64,000 nt of DNA. Source: Thiotrichaceae bacterium. GTDB taxonomy: Bacteria; Pseudomonadota; Gammaproteobacteria; Beggiatoales; Beggiatoaceae. The first letter of the stretch is position 1. Every line of letters starts with the position of its first letter. The stretch spans positions 1 to 64,000 of the forward strand of contig JAABRD010000012.1 in the NCBI GenBank assembly GCA_011391085.1. Reading direction: 5' to 3'. This document shows, piece after piece, positions 49,281 through 58,262 of this stretch. Under the pieces are notes generated by a model. The model saw nothing but the letters and a program-made list of their open reading frames with translations, was not told the DNA's origin and searched no databases. Made by a program: the position numbers and the translations under genes.

Positions 49281-50264
49281 ATGGTTGTACCTCGTGTTAG
49301 ATTGGAATGTATGAAAAACGCGAATACCGAATGCCAAAATGAAGTCACGGTCAGTTTAACTATTACCGACTTTGAAGAACATCCATCGGAAATAACCAGA
49401 ATCTTGGAAATTTCACCGTCCAGAGTTTGGTGCAAAGGTGAATTGATTGATGCAAGAACTTCAATACGTTACAAACAAAACGGTTGGAAACTGTTCTCTT
49501 CCCTATCTAAGAACCAAACATTTAGGGAACATATAGACAATTTGTTGGAAATACTAATTCCCCTCAGCAACAGATTTAGAAATTTACCTCTAATTTGTCA
49601 GATTGAGTTGACCTGTTGTTTCTATATCTACCATGAAATGCCCGAAATATTTTTAGATGGGCTTACTCTTAAGAGACTATCAAAATTGGATGCCGGAATA
49701 GATATTGATCTTTATTACTTTGGTCCCCCTCGTTTTCCACAACTGCTTCACCGGTACCAAGAAGCCTTCATGTGCCACCATCGTGAGGAGGATTCTGCTA
49801 TGAAAATACCCATTTCCTGGAGTATCGACCAGTTTGGGAGAATTATGGGACCACGTTTGCGCGATGGCTATCTGACGGGAGTTTGGTATTCAGAGGGACA
49901 GAGGTTGAAATTGCAGATTCAAAACCTCGCGAACGAGAGGATTGAGATAGAGTTTTTGGAGATAATCGAGATGAATATCACCCAACTTTGTAACGGGGCC
50001 ATTATTTCCGATGTCTCTCTCTGGAAAGTCAATAGTACTCCTGTCGCTTGGAATGTTCCCGATAGTGCTTGGAATATACTTTTCTCGGAACGATATGGTC
50101 TGGCTGGCGCCCAAGAAAAAGCCCGTAAACTGGCTAGAGAACACCCGTACTTCTGGTTGGCACAGGTGGAATGTTCGTATGGTGGGGCAATGGCAGCGAT
50201 TTGTAACCGGGTGGAGATTTTTTCGTCACGACCACTCGACGTTCAAGCGTGTCGATTGGACTGA
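49281..50264 (+). CDS. Chimeric immunity ORF: DUF4279-like N-half plus unknown C-half
   Basis: The first 150 residues look like DUF4279 (VTVSLTITDF ... SEITRILEISPSRVWCKGE ... GWKLFSSL). The frame then continues through a short odd segment into a second module starting MKIPISWSIDQFGRIMG. A strong GAGGAGG at about 49785 precedes an ATG at 49801, so the second module is probably translated separately. The last 30 or so residues read into leader-like repeat DNA (near 50176) and are unlikely to be original. The true start may be ATG 49311. It lies behind the type 33-like cassette and is a likely immunity array. Confidence 0.6.
   Translation: MVVPRVRLECMKNANTECQNEVTVSLTITDFEEHPSEITRILEISPSRVWCKGELIDARTSIRYKQNGWKLFSSLSKNQTFREHIDNLLEILIPLSNRFRNLPLICQIELTCCFYIYHEMPEIFLDGLTLKRLSKLDAGIDIDLYYFGPPRFPQLLHRYQEAFMCHHREEDSAMKIPISWSIDQFGRIMGPRLRDGYLTGVWYSEGQRLKLQIQNLANERIEIEFLEIIEMNITQLCNGAIISDVSLWKVNSTPVAWNVPDSAWNILFSERYGLAGAQEKARKLAREHPYFWLAQVECSYGGAMAAICNRVEIFSSRPLDVQACRLD
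49801..50264 (+). CDS. Probable second immunity gene nested in the chimeric ORF
   Basis: This 154-residue reading starts at ATG 49801 behind GAGGAGG. I do not recognise the family. The sequence is rich in aromatic and acidic residues (SIDQFGRIMGPRLRDGYLTGVWYSEG), without signal peptide or membrane segment. It is in the same frame as the longer ORF because no stop codon separates the modules. Confidence 0.5.
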
Positions 50265-51900
50265 CAAGAGGAAGTCCAATTCGACCTCAGACCATCAGAC
50301 GTTGAATTATACTTATGATGGATCGTTACCTCTCTCCGAAACTTGGAATGGGACGATAGCAGGTTCGTTGAGTCTGGAGTATAATAATGATTTGCGAGTG
50401 ACCTCGGCGAGTGTCAATGGCGGTTCGACGGTGACTTACCAATATGATGCCGACGGTTTGCTAGTGGGCGCGGGGGAGATGAACTTGACCAGGGATTCTT
50501 CCACGGGTCTCCTCCTGGGCACCCAACTGGGTTCGGTGACCACTCAACGGACTTACAATGCCTTTGGGGAACTGGCAAGTGAGACGGCGAGTTATCAAGG
50601 AAATATCCTTTCCCAAGTGCAGTATTCACGGGACAAATTGGGACGGATAGTCAGCAAAGTGGAGACGCTTGACGGTGTCACCACGACCTTTGAATATAGC
50701 TATGACTTAGCGGGTCGCTTGGTGGAAGTGAAGCAAGATGGGGTGGTTACCGAGAGTTACGAGTATGATGCCAATGGCAATCGGGTGCAGGCCCTCACCT
50801 CTGTTCAAGGAATGGTGTTGGGGAGTTATGATGACCAGGATAGATTGATTGAGTATGGTGAGAATCGTTACACGTATACGGCCAATGGGGAACTTCTTAC
50901 CAAGACCCGCCTTGGGCAAACGACCACTTATCACTATGATGTCTTTGGCAATTTGAGACAAGTCCAGTTGCCAGGGAAGACCATCGAGTATGTCATTGAT
51001 GGGCGAACTCGGCGCGTTGGCAAGACGGTGAATGGGAATCTGGTTCAGGGATTTTTGTATCAAGGGAGTTTGAAACCCATTGCCGAGTTGGATGGGGAAG
51101 GGAATGTGGTGGCCCGGTTTGTCTATGGGAGTAAGGGGAATGTGCCGGATTATTTGGTCAAGGAGGGGAAGACTTATCGGATAATCAGTGACCACTTGGG
51201 GAGTCCACGGTTGGTGGTGGACCTGAGTAATGGGGACGTGGCGCAGAAAATGGATTATGATGCGTTTGGGAACGTGGTCTTGGATACTCAGCCGGGATTC
51301 CAGCCGTTTGGGTTTGCGGGGGGGATGTATGATGCAGAGACGGGGTTGGTGCGGTTTGGGGCGCGGGATTATGACGCGGAGAGTGGGAGGTGGACGAGTA
51401 AGGACCCGATTGGGTTTGAGGGTGGGGATAGTAATTTGTTTGGGTATGTCGTAAGCAGTCCGGTTAACTTTATTGATCCACCTGGTCTTGATGTTACTGT
51501 TATCGTAAATAACAACACCCTAATTATTGGTACCCACGTTGGTGTATATGATAGTAGTTCTGCTGGCAATGTCTTATATGATCCAGGTGGATCTTATAAA
51601 ACCCCGCAAAAAGGTTCTGGAGATGCACTCTATGGAGAAGATGCCAATCTTCCAGACTATATAGAATTCCAAAAGGGAGATGGACCAAAAGTTCAGTTGT
51701 TTCATTTCGAAACTACTGCCGCGGAAGATGCGGAAATACGAAAACGAATAGAAGAACAAGGGGGTTGCGATCCAGGTTTTTGTTCAATTTGTTCTGGAAC
51801 GGTATTGCGGGGAATTGGGCCGTTTAAAAATCTCGGGTCGACTCGTACGCCGGCTGGCATGGCTAGCGAATTGCGTAAGTTGGGAGGTGGAACCCCATGA
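50179..51900 (+). CDS. Orphan Rhs cassette 3 with papain-like tip
   Basis: Homology to the full-length Rhs begins near 50297 (LNYTYDGSLPLSETWNG) and runs through the whole core to [16 protein letters not shown]. The 135-residue tip begins after FIDPPG. It has a His in IIGTHVGVYDSS, the segment LYDPGGSYK, and a Cys-rich CDPGFCSICSGTVLRGIG followed by STRTPAGMASEL. An ordered His and Cys with this context suggests a papain-like (NlpC/DUF-type) hydrolase, though the family is not certain. The start is uncertain: the open frame extends to 50011 but overlaps the preceding gene. The stop overlaps the next gene as ATGA. Confidence 0.72.
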   Translation: MVGQWQRFVTGWRFFRHDHSTFKRVDWTDKRKSNSTSDHQTLNYTYDGSLPLSETWNGTIAGSLSLEYNNDLRVTSASVNGGSTVTYQYDADGLLVGAGEMNLTRDSSTGLLLGTQLGSVTTQRTYNAFGELASETASYQGNILSQVQYSRDKLGRIVSKVETLDGVTTTFEYSYDLAGRLVEVKQDGVVTESYEYDANGNRVQALTSVQGMVLGSYDDQDRLIEYGENRYTYTANGELLTKTRLGQTTTYHYDVFGNLRQVQLPGKTIEYVIDGRTRRVGKTVNGNLVQGFLYQGSLKPIAELDGEGNVVARFVYGSKGNVPDYLVKEGKTYRIISDHLGSPRLVVDLSNGDVAQKMDYDAFGNVVLDTQPGFQPFGFAGGMYDAETGLVRFGARDYDAESGRWTSKDPIGFEGGDSNLFGYVVSSPVNFIDPPGLDVTVIVNNNTLIIGTHVGVYDSSSAGNVLYDPGGSYKTPQKGSGDALYGEDANLPDYIEFQKGDGPKVQLFHFETTAAEDAEIRKRIEEQGGCDPGFCSICSGTVLRGIGPFKNLGSTRTPAGMASELRKLGGGTP

Positions 51901-52310
51901 AAACAACTTTATCGCAATATCGTTTCCTGATTGCCTGTTTGATGGTCATGTTTTGCCATTTTATCATTTTTCAGGGTGGTTTAGAACGGTTTTTTGGCAA
52001 ATATCTTTATACTTATTTGTCAGGTGTAGTAGGAGTGATCCTATTATCTGGGCTGTTTTTGAAACCCGATCGATTTGCTATCTGTATACTCTGGTTATTG
52101 GTCGCGCCAGTGGCTGGTTCTATAGTTGGATATCTAGCCCTATCAATACAGTTTCGATTTGAACATGAACGTGTTGTTAGAGTGTCTTTCACAGATTGGT
52201 TATTCGTTAGCACTGTTTTAGTCTACTTGATTGCCAGACTTTGGGCGATTTCTCTAGGTCTGTTGGCCTGTTGCGGAATCGACTATTTGGTATTTCGTCG
52301 CGATAATTAG
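51897..52310 (+). CDS. Membrane protein, candidate immunity for cassette 3
   Basis: This 137-residue protein has about four hydrophobic segments (FLIACLMVMFCHFIIF, YLSGVVGVILLSGLFL, AICILWLLVAPVAGSIVGYL, and a C-terminal one). Its ATG overlaps the toxin stop codon (ATGA). A membrane immunity protein would fit a tip that acts in the periplasm, such as a peptidoglycan hydrolase. No family is recognised. Confidence 0.65.
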   Translation: MKTTLSQYRFLIACLMVMFCHFIIFQGGLERFFGKYLYTYLSGVVGVILLSGLFLKPDRFAICILWLLVAPVAGSIVGYLALSIQFRFEHERVVRVSFTDWLFVSTVLVYLIARLWAISLGLLACCGIDYLVFRRDN

Positions 52311-52638
52311 ACCGCCTTGGGGCACATTAAACGTATCTGTTTGGTGTGCGGCTATTGGAGTGGGAATTGGTATCTACCTGAATGAAGGTAAGCAACATTC
52401 AGATGAAGAAAAAGCTTTGACGGATATGATTGACACGGATACTAACGGCGGAAGAAAGCCTCTCAATCCTGAAGATGCTGAGGCCGCTATGGATTTGGGA
52501 AAAGGACTTGGATTAGACCCAATCAAGGATCATAGATATGGTCAGGATGCAATGCATTGGGTTGGAGGACCACACCTCCATATTGGAAATTGTAACCTTC
52601 AAAAAAGCGGTGATCATATACCAGCATTACCGCGTTAA
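52311..52638 (+). pseudogene. Displaced Rhs tip fragment
   Basis: An open frame without a proper start runs from just after the membrane protein to 52638. It reads RPPWGTLNVSVWCAAIGVGI, then acidic text and a His-rich end (HRYGQDAMHWVGGPHLHIG). The Gly/Ala-rich hydrophobic start is like the segment just after the core in other Rhs tips, so this looks like a tip severed from its core. The His-rich end may be a nuclease-like site; the family is unassigned. Confidence 0.6.
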
Positions 52639-52652
52639 ACTTTGGAGAGAAT

Positions 52653-53252
52653 ATGGAAAGAATCTGCGGATTTGCAGTCGTTAGACGTGCGAAGTGTAAT
52701 TTTCTTGATGATCTAACTCCACCGCGGATAGGTGGAGTTTATTATCACGGGGTTAAAAGGCAAAGTTGGAGTGAACTTAGAGAACCATATTACGAAGAAA
52801 CGCTACCGGTTCACTATAGCAAGTTATTTCGGTCATTGGAACTTACCAACGTAATTACATTGACCCAAGAACTAGAGATTGCACAAGATTTATTGTTTTT
52901 TTCCAATAAAGATGAACCGTTAAATGAACTCATTACGATTTACTCGAAAGGATTGGAAAGAACTAGAGGCAGTTTGAGAACGGCTCTAAAAATCAAATGG
53001 CTTGGAGAAGATGTGGTATGCGGCGGAATTGGTTCTATGCTCATGGAGGGAATCTTTACGAAACCTTATTTATTTTCTGACTTCACGAACTATCTTAATC
53101 AATATGGATTATTTGACATAAACAGTTCCGCGACAGATTTGTATGTGGTTCACTACAATGAATTAAATAAGCAAGGACATAATTTGGAAATATTTTCAGA
53201 CCGCATACATTCACTGGATAAAGTCTGGATTGGTGTCCCTGAGGCCACGTAG
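52653..53252 (+). CDS. Candidate immunity protein for the displaced tip
   Basis: I do not recognise this 199-residue protein. It has no signal peptide, and GGAGAG lies just before the ATG. The sequence is mixed alpha/beta with aromatic-rich stretches (RIGGVYYHGVKRQSWSEL). It begins 14 bp after the displaced tip stop codon, which suggests it is the matching immunity gene. Confidence 0.6.
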   Translation: MERICGFAVVRRAKCNFLDDLTPPRIGGVYYHGVKRQSWSELREPYYEETLPVHYSKLFRSLELTNVITLTQELEIAQDLLFFSNKDEPLNELITIYSKGLERTRGSLRTALKIKWLGEDVVCGGIGSMLMEGIFTKPYLFSDFTNYLNQYGLFDINSSATDLYVVHYNELNKQGHNLEIFSDRIHSLDKVWIGVPEAT

Positions 53253-53310
53253 CTAGGTCGGGTGGGCCAGTGTTTCTTGGTCCACTCATCCAATAGATTG
53301 GGAGAGTTAA

Positions 53311-53745
53311 ATGGAAACCACAAGAACCTATTTTCATGATTACCCAAGTTGTTCAAGAACCTACGCTACGTTATGTATTTATCATCAGGACCTGGTGCCC
53401 AGCCAAATTACCCAGTTGCTGGGCGTCAAACCCAGCTGTTCACAAATCAAGGGAGAGGTCCTGAGAAAAGGACAAGTGGCACCCATCGGTGGTTGGTTCT
53501 TAAAGACACGAGATGTCATAGACTCTCGAGATTTAAGATACCATATAGACGCCTTACTCCAGAAACTCGGCCCACAGCGAGAAATCTTGAAATTATTACG
53601 GGAACGCGGATATGATATTCGCATTTCCTGCTTTTGGGAATCCGCGACGGGAAACGGCGGACCACTTCTGGATTACCAGATGATGTCGGAATTAGGAGAG
53701 TTGTCGATTGATATACACTTTGATATCTGGTTTGATACCAGATAA
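53311..53745 (+). CDS. DUF4279 family protein, candidate immunity
   Basis: This 144-residue protein shows DUF4279 features: LCIYHQDLVPSQITQLLGVKPS near the start, GWFLKTRDVIDSRDLRYHID in the middle, and a C-terminal beta segment SIDIHFDIWF. A second DUF4279-like domain is at 49281. The stop codon is 11 bp before the group II intron, and the gene immediately precedes the interrupted leader repeat. Confidence 0.7.
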   Translation: METTRTYFHDYPSCSRTYATLCIYHQDLVPSQITQLLGVKPSCSQIKGEVLRKGQVAPIGGWFLKTRDVIDSRDLRYHIDALLQKLGPQREILKLLRERGYDIRISCFWESATGNGGPLLDYQMMSELGELSIDIHFDIWFDTR

Positions 53746-53756
53746 GGTAGGGTGGG

Positions 53757-54587
53757 GTGTGCCTAGTTAGGCGTTAAGAAATGGGGTGAGATTCCCCCTT
53801 CATTGAGTGAAAACCAGAAACTTCTTTAATCTGGGTAGTTTATGAAGTCCTTACTCTCAGACCTCGGAGATTCTAACAAATCATTTGGGTGTACAGCGAG
53901 AGGAAAACTGCGGAATGGTGAACTTAGGAGACTCTGTTTAATGTCACCACCGCTTGGAGAGACCGCTATGGTTAGCGAAAGCAAAGTCTTGGTTGAAGCC
54001 TCAAAAAACCTACAGGGTCAAAGACACCTATACAATGACGTCCCACCACCATTGTAACACTCTAAAGGTGTCTGGGGTAGAGAGACAACCTAATGCGGTC
54101 AATAAATTCTTAACGACTGAAACTAGGGATAAGGTGATTAAGTGTCCAATGGACTAGGTGTTAGCCAATTCTTAATCATCTTACAGAGGCGTAATAGTAT
54201 GTAAGTCAAGGAATGGACTAATTTATCGTGGTTGATAGAAACACACGAATCCCAGGGACGAATGGAACAAAAGTACGCTAGGAGGTTTCTTAATCCATTG
54301 AGTTCTTTGGATTTTTAACCAGCTTCAAGGTAGTAGATTGAGAGCCTACTAAGTCATCGTAGGAGAATCAACTTGAGGATTAGCGTCGCTACTAAAACGG
54401 GTTACTCATCTACAAAGACCGTGAGTTAAGGCCAGCCGTTTTTTTTTGAAATGGCTGGTGGTCATTGGGGAAGCCAAGCCCTGACCAAAATCTTTGAAAG
54501 CCGTGTGAAGCGAAAGTTTCCCGCACGGTTTGGGGTGGGGGGAAGTCCTAATCTCTAGTAAGAGAAGATGTCCTTCTCTATCACCAT
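53757..54587 (+). mobile_element. ORF-less group II intron (831 nt)
   Basis: The 5' end GTGTGCC followed by TAGTTAGGCGTTAAG fits the GUGYG intron start. A canonical 34-nt domain V is at 54498-54531, and domain VI at 54534-54585 carries a bulged A at 54580, 7 nt from the 3' end (AT). EBS1 CCCACC (54042-54047), in the loop of an ACAATG/CATTGT stem, pairs perfectly with the last six exon bases GGTGGG (53751-53756). Removing 53757-54587 rejoins GTAGGGTGGG to CAAACG, exactly as in the empty repeat at 54641-54663. No reverse transcriptase/maturase is encoded, so any splicing or mobility would need self-splicing or a maturase in trans. Confidence 0.93.
54498..54587 (+). ncRNA. Group II intron domains V and VI
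   Basis: Domain V has a 9-bp lower stem (AAGCCGTGT with GCACGGTTT), a 2-nt bulge CC, a 5-bp upper stem and a GAAA tetraloop, with the catalytic AGC at 54499-54501. Domain VI pairs GGTGGGGGGAAG (54534-54545) with CTTCTCTATCACC (54573-54585), leaving A54580 unpaired as branch point. Both match the expected geometry exactly. Confidence 0.93.
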
Positions 54588-54745
54588 CAAACGTTTTGTG
54601 GTTTGCCCCCCACTTCTGTACCATGACGGCAACTTGAGTAGCCAGGTAGGGTGGGCAAACGTCCTTTTGTTTGCCCACCGTTCACCACGACGGTCGGTGG
54701 ATATGGTGGGTCAACCTGCCTCTGACACCCCTTCACTTCCGCAAC
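54588..54745. repeat. Rhs leader repeats: intron-split copy and intact copy
   Basis: Immediately after the intron, CAAACGTTTTGTGGTTTGCC is the right half of a diverged leader repeat whose left half is at 53745-53756. An intact copy begins near 54637 (AGCCAGGTAGGGTGGGCAAA) and continues through CACCGTTCACCACGACGGTC and GGTGGGTCAACCTGCCTCTG to the start of the next Rhs fragment. Confidence 0.8.
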
Positions 54746-54749
54746 TGGG

Positions 54750-55781
54750 ATGCTTCTCACCAAGACCCGTCAAGGGCAAACGACCACTTATCACTACGAT
54801 GTCTTTGGCAATTTGAGACAAGTGGAGTTGCCTGGAAAGACCATTGAGTATGTCATTGATGGGCGGAATCGGCGCGTTGGCAAGAAGGTCAATGGGACGT
54901 TGGTTCAAGGATTCTTGTATCAAGGGAGTTTGAAACCGATTGCCGAGTTGGATGGGGAAGGGAATGTCGTGGCCCGGTTTGTCTATGGGAGTAAGGGGAA
55001 TGTGCCAGATTATTTGGTCAAGGAGGGGAAGACTTATCGGATAATCAGTGACCATTTGGGGAGTCCAAGGTTGGTGGTGGACCTCGGGAGTGGGGACGTG
55101 GCGCAGAAGATGGAGTATGATGCGTTTGGAAACGTGGTCTTGGATACTCAGCCGGGATTCCAGCCGTTTGGGTTTGCGGGGGGAATTTATGATTTGGATA
55201 CCCAATTGGTGAGGTTTGGGGCCAGGGATTATGACGCGGAGAGTGGACGGTGGACGAGTAAAGACCCGATTGGGTTTGAGGGTGGGGATAGTAATTTGTT
55301 TGGGTATGTGTTGGACGCGCCCGTTAATTTGATGGATATAAACGGTTTCATTCCTATAGATACTGCGTGGGATTTAGCCAATATTGTGGTTGATATTGCC
55401 ACAGGTGATAATGTTGCCTTAGCAGCCGATACGGTTGCACTTGCGGTCCCGTATCTTCCTGCCGGTATAACCAAGATTAATAAAGTCGACACCGTCATAG
55501 CTGAGACTCTTTCTGGAAAAGGAAATATTACAAGTAGTGTAACAGTGAGTGCCGATGAGCTTCTTGAGGCTGGAGAGCGGTTTCTTGGAAGTGAATATAG
55601 GGAAATTGGCAAATCTGGAAGTGGTGTGTTTCGTAGCGCGGATGGTTCACGACAATTTAGAATAGATGACAATTCTCTTTTAGGGCAGCATAAACCGTAT
55701 GTACCGCATGGACACTTAGAAACCTACGCGCCCAAAGCACGGACACCAACAACCAATAATCACATTCCATTTTGCGACTAA
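54750..55781 (+). CDS. Orphan Rhs cassette 4 with DGSRQFR-type tip
   Basis: Homology to the full-length Rhs starts abruptly at [11 protein letters not shown] and ends with [14 protein letters not shown]. The tip (about 145 residues, after LMDINGF) has a hydrophobic segment followed by [31 protein letters not shown] and a late His-rich [16 protein letters not shown] recall this layout from other Rhs/Cdi tips but cannot name the activity. No signal peptide or SD is seen. It lies directly after the intron-bearing leader. Confidence 0.72.
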
Positions 55782-55792
55782 GGTGTATGATT

Positions 55793-56011
55793 ATGAATAT
55801 CAAAATCAATGTAGTAGGTCAAATTGTAGCAGGTAATAGAGAAGTTGGTTCATTCGTCAAGGTTTTAGATGATGCTGAAAGTACCGGTGGATTTCTGATT
55901 CTCATGGCAAGTACTTCTGAAATGGAAGACTGTTTTGATGATTGGGTTGAAAATGAAGGTTCTCTTCGACAGTATTTTCTGGAGTCGGGCTGGACTGTTT
56001 TGTGGTTGTGA
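55793..56011 (+). CDS. Small candidate immunity protein for cassette 4
   Basis: This 72-residue acidic protein starts at ATG 55793, preceded by AAGGTG; an upstream TTG overlapping the toxin end is less likely. The text GGFLILMASTSEMEDCFDDW and YFLESGWTVLWL is compact and aromatic. It begins 11 bp after the toxin stop. The role is inferred from position. Confidence 0.65.
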   Translation: MNIKINVVGQIVAGNREVGSFVKVLDDAESTGGFLILMASTSEMEDCFDDWVENEGSLRQYFLESGWTVLWL

Positions 56012-56027
56012 TTCGTTGATAACGGCG

Positions 56028-56115
56028 TTTAGCCAGGTAGCCAGGTAGTTCACTACGACAGTCTGCGGGTATGGTGGGGCAACCTGCCTCTGACACCTCT
56101 TCACTCCCGCAACCC
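56028..56115. repeat. Rhs leader repeat, copy before the HINT cassette
   Basis: The copy reads AGCCAGGTAGCCAGGTAG, then TTCACTACGACAGTCTGCGG and ATGGTGGGGCAACCTGCCTC. The central GGGTGGGCAAACG segment is deleted. It ends 30 bp before the ATG of the next gene. Confidence 0.7.
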
Positions 56116-56144
56116 ATTTTGGAATCGAAAACCAATTAACTACT

Positions 56145-58262
56145 ATGAAACACACTCTCTTACTCATCACTCTGAGTCTATTTCTCACTGGTGTTTCCAG
56201 TTCCGCCACCCTCCGCACTCACACGGCTGGTAGCACTCTGAGTTACACTTATGACGGTGCGCTACTCCGTGCCGAAACCTGGACGGGCAACCTCCTCCAG
56301 GGCCAGGTTCAGCAAGATTATAATAATGTCCTCCGAATCGCGAGTCTCAAGGTCAACGACGCCAATCCGATTCAATATGGCTACGACGCGGAAGGCTTGC
56401 TAACAGGCGCCGGGGAATTGACCTTGACTCGGAGTCCTCAAACGGGTCTGTTAACGGGTACGACGTTACGACAAGTCACGACCCAGTTGACTCACAATCC
56501 CTTTGGCGAATTGGCGAGTGAGACGGTTAAGTTTGGCGAGAGTCTGCTGTATCAAGCTACCTACACTCGTGATAAGTTGGGACGGATTCTGGGGAAAGTG
56601 GAGACCGTTGCGGGAGAGACCCACACTGACGAGTATCGTTATGACTCGCGGGGTCGTCTCGTGGAGGTCAAACAGGACGGGCAGGTGACTCAGACGTTGA
56701 GTTATGATGCCAATGGCAATCGTCTCCTCGCGAACCAGGTTACCGCCAGTTACGATAATCAAGACCGTCTCCTCCAACAGGGTGAGGTGACTTATTCTTA
56801 CACCCTTACGGGCGACTTACAGACTCAAACGCAAGGGGGTCAAACCACTCGTTACACCTCCGACACGTTGGGTAATTTGACCAAAGTGGAGTTGCCCAAT
56901 GGCACGGTGGTGGAATATGTGATAGATGGAAATGACCGCCGCGTGGGTCGGAAAGTGGATGGCAACCTCACTCACCAGTGGTTATATCATGGCCCCTTGA
57001 CCCCCATTGCCCAATTGGATAGTCAAGGTCAAGTGGTCGCCCGCTATGTGTATGGCAGTCAAGACCACGTTCCTGATTACCTCCTCCTGGGGGAGACCCT
57101 GTATCGCTTGGTGACCGACCAGTTAGGAAGTGTGCGACTGGTGGTCAACGTGATGACAGGGGAGGTGGTGCAACGGTTGGATTATGACGTTTGGGGGAAC
57201 GTCCTCCAAGACACGAATCCTGGGTTTCAACCATTTGGGTTTGCGGGCGGCATGTACGACTCGTTGACGGGTTTGGTACACTTTGGTGCGAGAGAGTATG
57301 ACCCACTGGTGGGAAGATGGACGACGAAAGACCCGATTGGGTTTGCCAGTGAAGATACCAATCTGTATGCCTACGTGTATAATGACCCGGTGAATCAAGT
57401 GGACCCGTCGGGACTCTTTTGGAATGTCGTGGCCGGTTGCTTACTCGGTGGTGGGATTGAACTAGCCTCCCAAGTGTTCCTCGAGGGCAAGAGTTTAGGT
57501 TGTGTGGACTGGGGAAGTGTGGCCTGGGAAACCGCGATGGGATGCAATCCATTTTCCAAAGCCACCAAGGCGAGTAAAGCGGCGAAGGGATTAGGTTGTC
57601 TGGGTGGAAATAGCTTCGTGGCAGGGACGTTAGTACACACCGACCAAGGGTTAACACCGATTGAGGAAGTCAAGGTTGGGGACCAGGTGAAGTCCTACAA
57701 TGAGAGAACGGGGCAGACCAGTTTTGAACCCGTGCTGGAACTCATGCAACATGACGGGACGGTTCCGTTGGTGAAAGTGACGTTGGACTCTGGTGAGAGT
57801 TTGGAGGCGACGGCGGGTCATCCGTTTTATGTTCAGGGGAAAGGGTGGAATGTTGCCGCCAGCTTGAAGGTTGGGGAGGCGCTGCGGTTGCATAATGGGG
57901 TGACTCTGGTCATCAAGACGGTTGAGACTGGTAGTCGTTTGGCCCGCGTGTACAATTTCTCGGTGGCGCGGAATGCCAATTACTTCGTCGGGGAGGACGG
58001 GGTGTTGGTGCATAATTGTAAAACTCCAAAATTAAAAGGAATTCATTCCAAAGAAACATTAACGTCAGGCTCCAACAAATATAGTTATGATTATTGGAGT
58101 AAACAATCAACAGATAACATTGTGAAATCTCTAAAATCCGGACAAGAAGAAGCTCTTCGAGTCAAACCGGACGGCAGAATCTGGAATGGGAACACACGTA
58201 CAACGATTCTTCAGGAAAGAGGGTTCGATATAAATACGTTACCTTATGAGGCACTAGAATGA
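56145..58262 (+). CDS. Short secreted Rhs with HINT domain and ParB-like tip
   Basis: This 705-residue protein has its own Sec signal peptide (MKHTLLLITLSLFLTGVSS). Rhs repeats and core follow directly (about 30-420), diverged from the other cassettes at sequence level. After DPSG come a hydrophobic linker and a HINT (intein-like) domain, from the Cys in GCLGGNSFVAGTLVHT (about 485) through TAGHPFYV to the terminal VHNC, which would cleave off the tip. The final 80 residues contain VKPDGRIWNGNTRTTILQERG, which resembles a ParB/sulfiredoxin-type nucleotide-binding motif. The gene ends exactly one base before the next ATG. Confidence 0.85.
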   Translation: MKHTLLLITLSLFLTGVSSSATLRTHTAGSTLSYTYDGALLRAETWTGNLLQGQVQQDYNNVLRIASLKVNDANPIQYGYDAEGLLTGAGELTLTRSPQTGLLTGTTLRQVTTQLTHNPFGELASETVKFGESLLYQATYTRDKLGRILGKVETVAGETHTDEYRYDSRGRLVEVKQDGQVTQTLSYDANGNRLLANQVTASYDNQDRLLQQGEVTYSYTLTGDLQTQTQGGQTTRYTSDTLGNLTKVELPNGTVVEYVIDGNDRRVGRKVDGNLTHQWLYHGPLTPIAQLDSQGQVVARYVYGSQDHVPDYLLLGETLYRLVTDQLGSVRLVVNVMTGEVVQRLDYDVWGNVLQDTNPGFQPFGFAGGMYDSLTGLVHFGAREYDPLVGRWTTKDPIGFASEDTNLYAYVYNDPVNQVDPSGLFWNVVAGCLLGGGIELASQVFLEGKSLGCVDWGSVAWETAMGCNPFSKATKASKAAKGLGCLGGNSFVAGTLVHTDQGLTPIEEVKVGDQVKSYNERTGQTSFEPVLELMQHDGTVPLVKVTLDSGESLEATAGHPFYVQGKGWNVAASLKVGEALRLHNGVTLVIKTVETGSRLARVYNFSVARNANYFVGEDGVLVHNCKTPKLKGIHSKETLTSGSNKYSYDYWSKQSTDNIVKSLKSGQEEALRVKPDGRIWNGNTRTTILQERGFDINTLPYEALE

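Follow-up and report, generated by a model that had tools for sequence, protein, structure and literature searches.

ORF-less group II introns placed mainly in a palindromic repeat of a Beggiatoaceae-like bacterium

Positions 53757–54587 of the window, the 64,000-nt stretch of DNA analysed in this study, are an ORF-less group II intron of 831 nt whose core looks intact in sequence. The intron belongs to a family of ORF-less copies found mainly in one palindromic repeat, and we consider it probable (about 0.8) that this family is spliced and moved in trans by a related reverse transcriptase (RT)/maturase and sited by EBS1 and EBS2. The RNA would splice out of its transcript, an RT/maturase from a related intron elsewhere in the genome would bind the ORF-less RNA in trans, and this trans-acting protein would carry the intron to new sites, which EBS1 together with EBS2 would pick. 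The features of the intron and its target are as follows.

53745–53749, + strand: IBS2 (AGGTA), part of the 5′ exon; forms 4 of 5 pairs with the intron's EBS2
53746–53756, + strand: 5′ half of the palindromic repeat that the intron interrupts, lying in the 5′ exon; with the flanks joined, the repeat folds at -25.1 kcal/mol
53751–53756, + strand: IBS1 (GGTGGG), the final six bases of the 5′ exon; 6 of 6 pairs with EBS1
53757–54587, + strand: ORF-less group II intron, 831 nt, GTGTG...AT; ends common to five full-length copies
53763–54126, + strand: domain I, basal helix to basal helix; folds, with two-sided changes in 56 of 86 pairs over nine copies
54007–54011, + strand: EBS2 (AACCT); top z when EBS windows and exons were scanned without a filter, at offset 7
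54042–54047, + strand: EBS1 (CCCACC) in a hairpin loop; top raw score of the six-base scan, offset 0; its stem, helix 14, covaries
54431–54486, + strand: short domain IV of two hairpins; layout common to all five full-length copies
54498–54531, + strand: domain V, 34 nt, with AGC triad and GAAA loop; RF00029 match and sequence
54534–54585, + strand: domain VI, in which A54580 is unpaired; RF00029 match and fold
54588–54613, + strand: 3′ half (3′ exon) of the interrupted palindromic repeat; joined-flank fold and comparison of family ends
54646–54679, + strand: uninterrupted copy of the same palindromic repeat, downstream; folds at -25.3 kcal/mol

Group II introns begin with GUGYG, end with AY, and carry a bulged A in domain VI 7–8 nt from the 3′ end. 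The intron of the window begins with GTGTG (53757–53761) and ends with AT, and A54580 is unpaired seven nt ahead of 54587, the final base; the five-copy fold leaves the neighbouring 3′ base unpaired as well. The Rfam model RF00029 matches 54496–54587 over model positions 1–77 of 77, scoring 59 bits against a gathering score of 40, with an E-value of 4.8e-09 when the whole window is searched and of 8.6e-11 for a stretch of 1151 bases. Within this match, domain V has its AGC triad at 54499–54501, its GAAA loop at 54512–54515 and a two-base bulge. Rfam support concerns domains V–VI only: at E up to 1 the search listed no model for domains I–IV, and the other match listed, to a plastid domain-V family, fell under its gathering score. 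The RF00029 model is silent on subclass and mobility.

An earlier note, made from the letters of the sequence, had described the GTGTG and AT ends, a 34-nt domain V with a GAAA tetraloop and AGC triad, and a domain VI with an A bulged 7 nt from the 3′ end. All of these were borne out, the ends being common to five full-length copies, and the covariance-model check that it proposed for domains V and VI gave the match above its gathering score. The perfect 6-bp EBS1–IBS1 pairing, with EBS1 in a stem-loop, was likewise recovered. EBS2–IBS2, which the note does not mention, has 4 of 5 pairs in the window copy. The note's argument that the intron leaves no room for a protein also stands: only two ORFs of at least 60 aa lie fully within it, of 71 and 67 aa, and domain IV is reduced to two short hairpins at the usual position of the maturase ORF.

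Domain I is well conserved as a structure. Over nine copies, 95.2% of cells are paired, with two-sided changes in 56 of 86 pairs and a covariation score of 0.584, whereas shuffles gave means of 76.8%, 30.9 pairs and 0.217, with none of 500 reaching the observed values. When partners were slid by 1–3 columns, 40.6–46.3% of cells were paired, a comparison biased towards the structure, since this was derived from the same sequences. The EBS1 stem (helix 14) has two-sided changes in 7 of 9 pairs, which is the compensated domain I structure around EBS1 that the earlier note had suggested looking for. The whole-intron fold of five copies, uncurated and unreliable in its long-range parts, has two-sided changes in 27 of 254 pairs. 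Taken together, the covariance model, the shared ends, the compensation in domain I and the EBS/IBS pairing agree with the description of a compact and apparently intact ribozyme, as far as this can be read from sequence.

The intron and its neighbouring genes share a strand. Its position is intergenic, with 11 bases between it and the stop of a DUF4279 ORF (53311–53745), and an RHS C-terminal copy (54750–55781) comes after it. The intron interrupts a palindromic repeat with a 13-nt core, GTAGGGTGGGCAA. The genome contains 142 occurrences of this core, divided 84 to 58 between the two strands; as a control, the core with its letters reversed occurs 0 times. A second arm, TTGCCCACC, was found no more than 45 bases from the core with at most one mismatch at 26 of 30 inspected sites and with two mismatches at one; it was missing from the other three. 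The bases upstream of the core vary among sites. Ten of the 13 family A ends with readable exons lie inside the repeat, although the copy in C58 retains little of the second arm, and three (C129a, C140 and C34) lie outside it. The main target is the 5′ arm of the repeat, GTAGGGTGG^GCAA; the window copy and C58 are shifted by one base, the target for the window-type EBS1 (CCCACC) being GTAGGGTGGG^CAA. We assume that the repeats lie outside genes and are for that reason tolerated as landing pads.

The surrounding region (50011–58262) contains several RHS/YD-repeat genes whose C-terminal stretches are closely similar and whose tails vary; one of the genes has a pretoxin HINT domain. Small ORFs such as the DUF4279 ORF lie between these genes, and cores of the palindromic repeat occur near them at 54646 and 58587.

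The genome that harbors the window is Beggiatoaceae-like and comprises 5,771,164 bases in 140 contigs (99.92% complete), the window being contig 33 (C33). Intron DNA matches 47 places in this genome by BLAST. Besides fragments, the matches include full-length ORF-less copies in C58, C53 and C74, with 91%, 81% and 80% identity to the window copy, respectively. A fifth full-length copy, L081 (SulCav), is found in DZAL01000035.1, a Thiomargarita sp. MAG. This was the one named record returned by a 42-base degenerate 5′-end pattern among 84,980 species genomes, a set from which close relatives of our genome may be absent. The earlier note had treated the intron as a single element; the intron itself stands, but not its isolation, since other members of its family exist, and the family is mostly inserted in one repeat.

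The five full-length copies are 77.8–90.4% identical in pairs, 30-nt flanks included. All five have GTGTG...AT ends and the short domain IV layout, and because these are shared, the simplest reading is that the ORF was lost once, before the family spread. A 29-column indel, EBS1 and the insertion site split the copies in the same way, with the window and C58 on one side and C53, C74 and SulCav on the other. Four of the five have a 34-nt domain V complete with AGC triad, GNRA loop and two-nt bulge; C74 is the exception, and its domain V tip folds at -7.2 kcal/mol compared with -15.8 in the other four. The changed tip, TTTCGCTACCG, is common to three copies (L004 in C74, L007 in C73 and L044 in C50).

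Beyond the close copies, the family was not found in viral contigs (searched with the exact 5′ pattern) or in plasmids (blastn). Across 94 related genomes, with up to five candidates scored per genome, intron DNA gave only short matches in the domain V region, in five genomes. Twenty stretches were taken at domain-V loci of other genomes of the bacterial family, and RT homology was found in three of them (L183, L184 weakly, and L195). This count cannot give the number truly ORF-less because several stretches are misplaced, short or poor in upstream sequence: L187 (G007) is not a domain-V place, L196 is short, and L180, L181, L186 and L194 have little upstream sequence.

To examine guide pairing, nine copies with a 5′ exon and domain I were aligned, and all gap-free windows of five or six bases were scored against exon offsets, with G-U pairs counted as half and re-dealt exons as the control. 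The scan was unfiltered and covered 10,235 window-offset combinations; C129e, which has the same EBS as C129s, and C87, whose sequence stops before EBS1, were excluded. EBS2 (columns 297–301, offset 7) scored 39.5 of 45 against a re-dealt mean of 19.1 (z 5.3), and EBS1 (columns 332–337, offset 0) scored 50 of 54 against 28.5 (z 4.8). These two and their overlapping windows rank at the top of the scan, the best z elsewhere being 3.3. The nine copies are not independent, since C33 and C58 share one EBS1 and C53, C74 and SulCav share another. When each distinct EBS1 was represented by a single copy, the six copies scored 33.5 of 36 against a mean of 17.1, and only the true order of 720 reaches this score. 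EBS2 differs in all nine copies, and two of 362,880 orders, the true one included, reach the observed score.

Each of the nine copies pairs its EBS1 with the exon at 5–6 of 6 positions, while EBS2 pairs at 5 of 5 in five copies and at 3.5–4 in four, the window copy having 4. Copies with EBS1 CCCACC (the window and C58) are inserted at GGTGGG^CAA, and those with CCATCC (C53 and SulCav) one base upstream, at GGGTGG^GCAA; C74 is placed likewise, at a variant site. The pairing extends to sites outside the repeat, where the copies C129a, C51 and C50 inner pair at 5–6 of 6 positions through EBS1; the truncated copy at C129:113375, away from the repeat, has EBS1 GAATCC and sits after the exon sequence GGATTC. 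Because EBS1 and EBS2 match their own exons and the site shifts with EBS1, the guides account for the choice of site both inside and outside the repeat.

In subclass IIA introns, the first base of the 3′ exon pairs with delta, the base just 5′ of EBS1. IIA was rejected here, as delta is T in all nine copies but among the full-length copies the 3′ exon starts with C in two cases and with G in three. Subclass IIC introns are without EBS2 and insert after a terminator hairpin; IIC was likewise rejected, since EBS2 is present and the insertion lies inside the 5′ arm of the hairpin. For the EBS3–IBS3 pairing of subclass IIB, eight alignment columns fit, all of which split the five copies identically.

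A candidate source of the RT/maturase (IEP) was sought in the same genome. The earlier note had proposed a search for a related intron with a maturase gene. Related ORF-less copies were found, as described above, but a group II maturase above the cut-off was not, in an assembly that is broken at many introns: the TIGR04416 model of group II RT/maturases gave six matches in the genome, none over the cut-off. Only the IEP of C50 is clearly a group II protein; it matches Pfam RVT_N, RVT_1 and HNH on two pieces, and is frameshifted. Its catalytic motif is YTDN, the usual motif of group II RTs being YADD. The RTs of C67 and C52 were considered as drivers, and at 132 and 78 bits both fall far short of the 300-bit group II cut-off; C47 has two short RT matches, one with a stop. 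An unusual RT fusion was also seen at L080:2357-6016 (G000:C52), where an ORF of 1220 aa combines RVT_1 (39 bits, cut-off 29.6) with divergent InlB B-repeats (Flg_new_2).

The lack of an intact IEP may be an artefact, with the driver perhaps unassembled: of the 22 RF00029 domain-V matches in the genome (20 of the 22 above the gathering score), 13 are situated no more than 10 nt from the end of a contig, and the assembly probably broke there because of repeated introns. IEPs do exist in nearby genomes: among 42 genomes of the bacterial family, our own included, 34 have a match to the IEP model, and in 10 it is over the cut-off. An IEP-bearing relative, frameshifted and with the same 3′ end, is present in G026, which belongs to another genus. 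The C50 locus itself (L044, G000:C50:4196-6788, minus strand) consists of a family A 5′ end and, after about 182 bases, a family C-like intron with the frameshifted RT-HNH gene. The EBS1 of this inner intron pairs at 5 of 6 positions and its EBS2 at 3.5 of 5 with outer intron sequence. As BLAST finds a single domain V region and RF00029 listed none there, the nested locus may be either a rearranged twintron or a fusion.

The proposal of splicing and movement in trans has to be set against several other readings. That chance hairpins merely resemble a group II intron is practically excluded by the RF00029 match, the covariation in domain I and the identical ends of the full-length copies, and the idea was rejected; recurrence in the genome at 91, 81 and 80% identity with the same ends places the feature beyond chance. 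Since 10 of 13 family A ends fall within the same repeat, homologous recombination between palindromic repeats, with the intron as a passenger, was considered as the route of spreading. It was discarded as very improbable: guide pairing is better than with re-dealt exons, the bases upstream of the repeat core vary by site and EBS2 tracks them, the copies C129a, C51 and C50 inner pair through EBS1 although they are not in the repeat, and the insertion site moves one base with EBS1. An absent IEP and a complete-looking ribozyme would both be expected of a protein-free intron that self-splices well enough in the cell and whose mobility is long past. We find this improbable, as so many RF00029 matches end at contig ends that IEP-bearing introns may be unassembled, and as the G026 relative with the same 3′ end carries an IEP gene, if a frameshifted one. 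It is more doubtful still that a protein-less lineage multiplies by means of a foreign RT and a genome-wide repeat, EBS1 and EBS2 drifting with the repeat variants; in the boldest form of this idea there would be no cognate maturase, and a non-group-II RT or the ribozyme alone would serve.

Movement in trans has evidence against it as well. The copies differ by up to 22%, which does not point to recent movement; the assembly holds no intact group II IEP, that of C50 being frameshifted with YTDN; EBS2–IBS2 pairing is incomplete in four of nine copies; the domain V tip of C74 is disrupted; and 3 of 13 ends lie outside the repeat. The least supported step is the action in trans of an unassembled IEP, which we infer. 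A decaying, splicing-only relic that no longer moves and is kept through its intergenic position is an alternative that we think unlikely. Full-length copies that are 80–91% identical to the window copy rather than near-identical, the broken state of the one clear group II IEP of the assembly and a full-length copy (C74) with a disrupted domain V tip all point in this direction, and a 2015 review, in its available text, terms introns lacking an IEP splicing-only (PMC4424553). A relic is harder to reconcile with the full-length copies, all five of which have retained their ends and four their domain V. It also sits less well with guides that track the exon over nine copies and with domain I pairing preserved by two-sided changes, although either could stem from past movement. 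Movement in trans, guided by EBS1 and EBS2, is the reading that we prefer.

The closest precedent is Thermosynechococcus elongatus, where the main features described here have a counterpart (Mohr 2010, PMC2882425). That genome has 17 ORF-less introns derived from one deletion, in four EBS families, alongside two IEP-bearing families, and trans mobility of the ORF-less introns was tested and reported; introns are also nested, and the ORF-less family F4 occupies a fixed site in an insertion element (PMC2882425). Like the TeI3 introns of T. elongatus, the introns described here would form an ORF-less lineage with a shared domain IV deletion, EBS families with different targets, IEP-bearing relatives, and nesting (PMC2882425). 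In contrast to that account, no intact driver IEP is assembled here and trans mobility is something we only infer. Also different are the main target, a palindromic repeat of which 142 exact cores exist, and the identity of the copies with their flanks (77.8–90.4%).

Two other cases are comparable in part. Ca. Thiomargarita nelsonii Bud S10, a related bacterium with many group II introns, was described as having 57 IIB2 introns, with RT, maturase and HNH, and non-protein-encoding versions were inferred (Flood 2016, PMC4853749). The likeness drawn here is one of description, and in the available portions the account of these ORF-less versions comes without structure, boundaries, EBS/IBS or target (PMC4853749). 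The same 2015 review describes ORF-less group II introns as rare among bacteria and mentions C.te.I1 of Clostridium tetani, for which self-splicing in the cell was speculated (PMC4424553). C.te.I1 resembles the intron of the window as an ORF-less bacterial group II intron with no cognate IEP detected in the genome. Unlike C.te.I1, as presented there, the introns studied here have several copies, mostly in one repeat, and the absence of an IEP may be an assembly gap (PMC4424553).

Within the literature covered, a search for group II introns together with palindromes or MITEs brought up a paper on IS elements in REP sequences and a genome-editing paper. An abundant palindromic repeat as main target, with EBS1 and EBS2 tracking it, seems to be new in this bacterial group, a claim that is weak because subscription papers were mostly outside the coverage. 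If an ORF-less intron has spread in a second bacterial lineage and come to aim at new targets through changes in EBS, the T. elongatus route would look general. That route, in which one shared splicing and mobility protein serves many small introns, is a model for the origin of the spliceosome. The repeat target also makes the choice of site testable, as it provides many natural uninterrupted sites.

Other group II introns were seen along the way. The 'family B' sequences are near-identical group II 3′ ends of 89–97 bases, mostly located at contig ends. Twelve contig ends carry the 89–97-nt 3′ end (C5, C31, C36, C58, C61, C69, C70, C71, C82, C84, C97 and C137), followed by TAAAATTCTG in eight contigs and by a variant in four; they probably represent a high-copy intron family collapsed in the assembly. 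Copies of 'family C', also mostly at contig ends, seem to split a PIN-like gene and a Uma2-like gene, the contig ends having been paired and the genes named by eye. The IEP-bearing, frameshifted relative with the same 3′ end, L195 (G026:C16:12331-14619), lies by eye in another palindromic repeat (GTAGGTTGGGC...), and palindrome targeting may be wider than this family.

L177 (G017:C395) and L189 (G037:C13), from one genus, are 69% identical over about 600 nt before their 3′ ends and differ in their flanks. No RT homology was found near either, and they are possibly a second ORF-less lineage in the family. L189 (G037:C13:7173-7804, minus strand), about 630 nt long and scoring 71.6 bits with RF00029, is an ORF-less group II intron that, by eye, interrupts a tRNA-Thr(GGT) gene on the 3′ side of the anticodon stem. 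The IEP-bearing TeI4h of T. elongatus, which the available text places in a tRNA-Ile gene, is a precedent for this location (PMC2882425). The 14-base pattern occurs once in G037, a genome 80% complete, and the site is uninterrupted in the homologues of G017 (L197) and G032 (L199).
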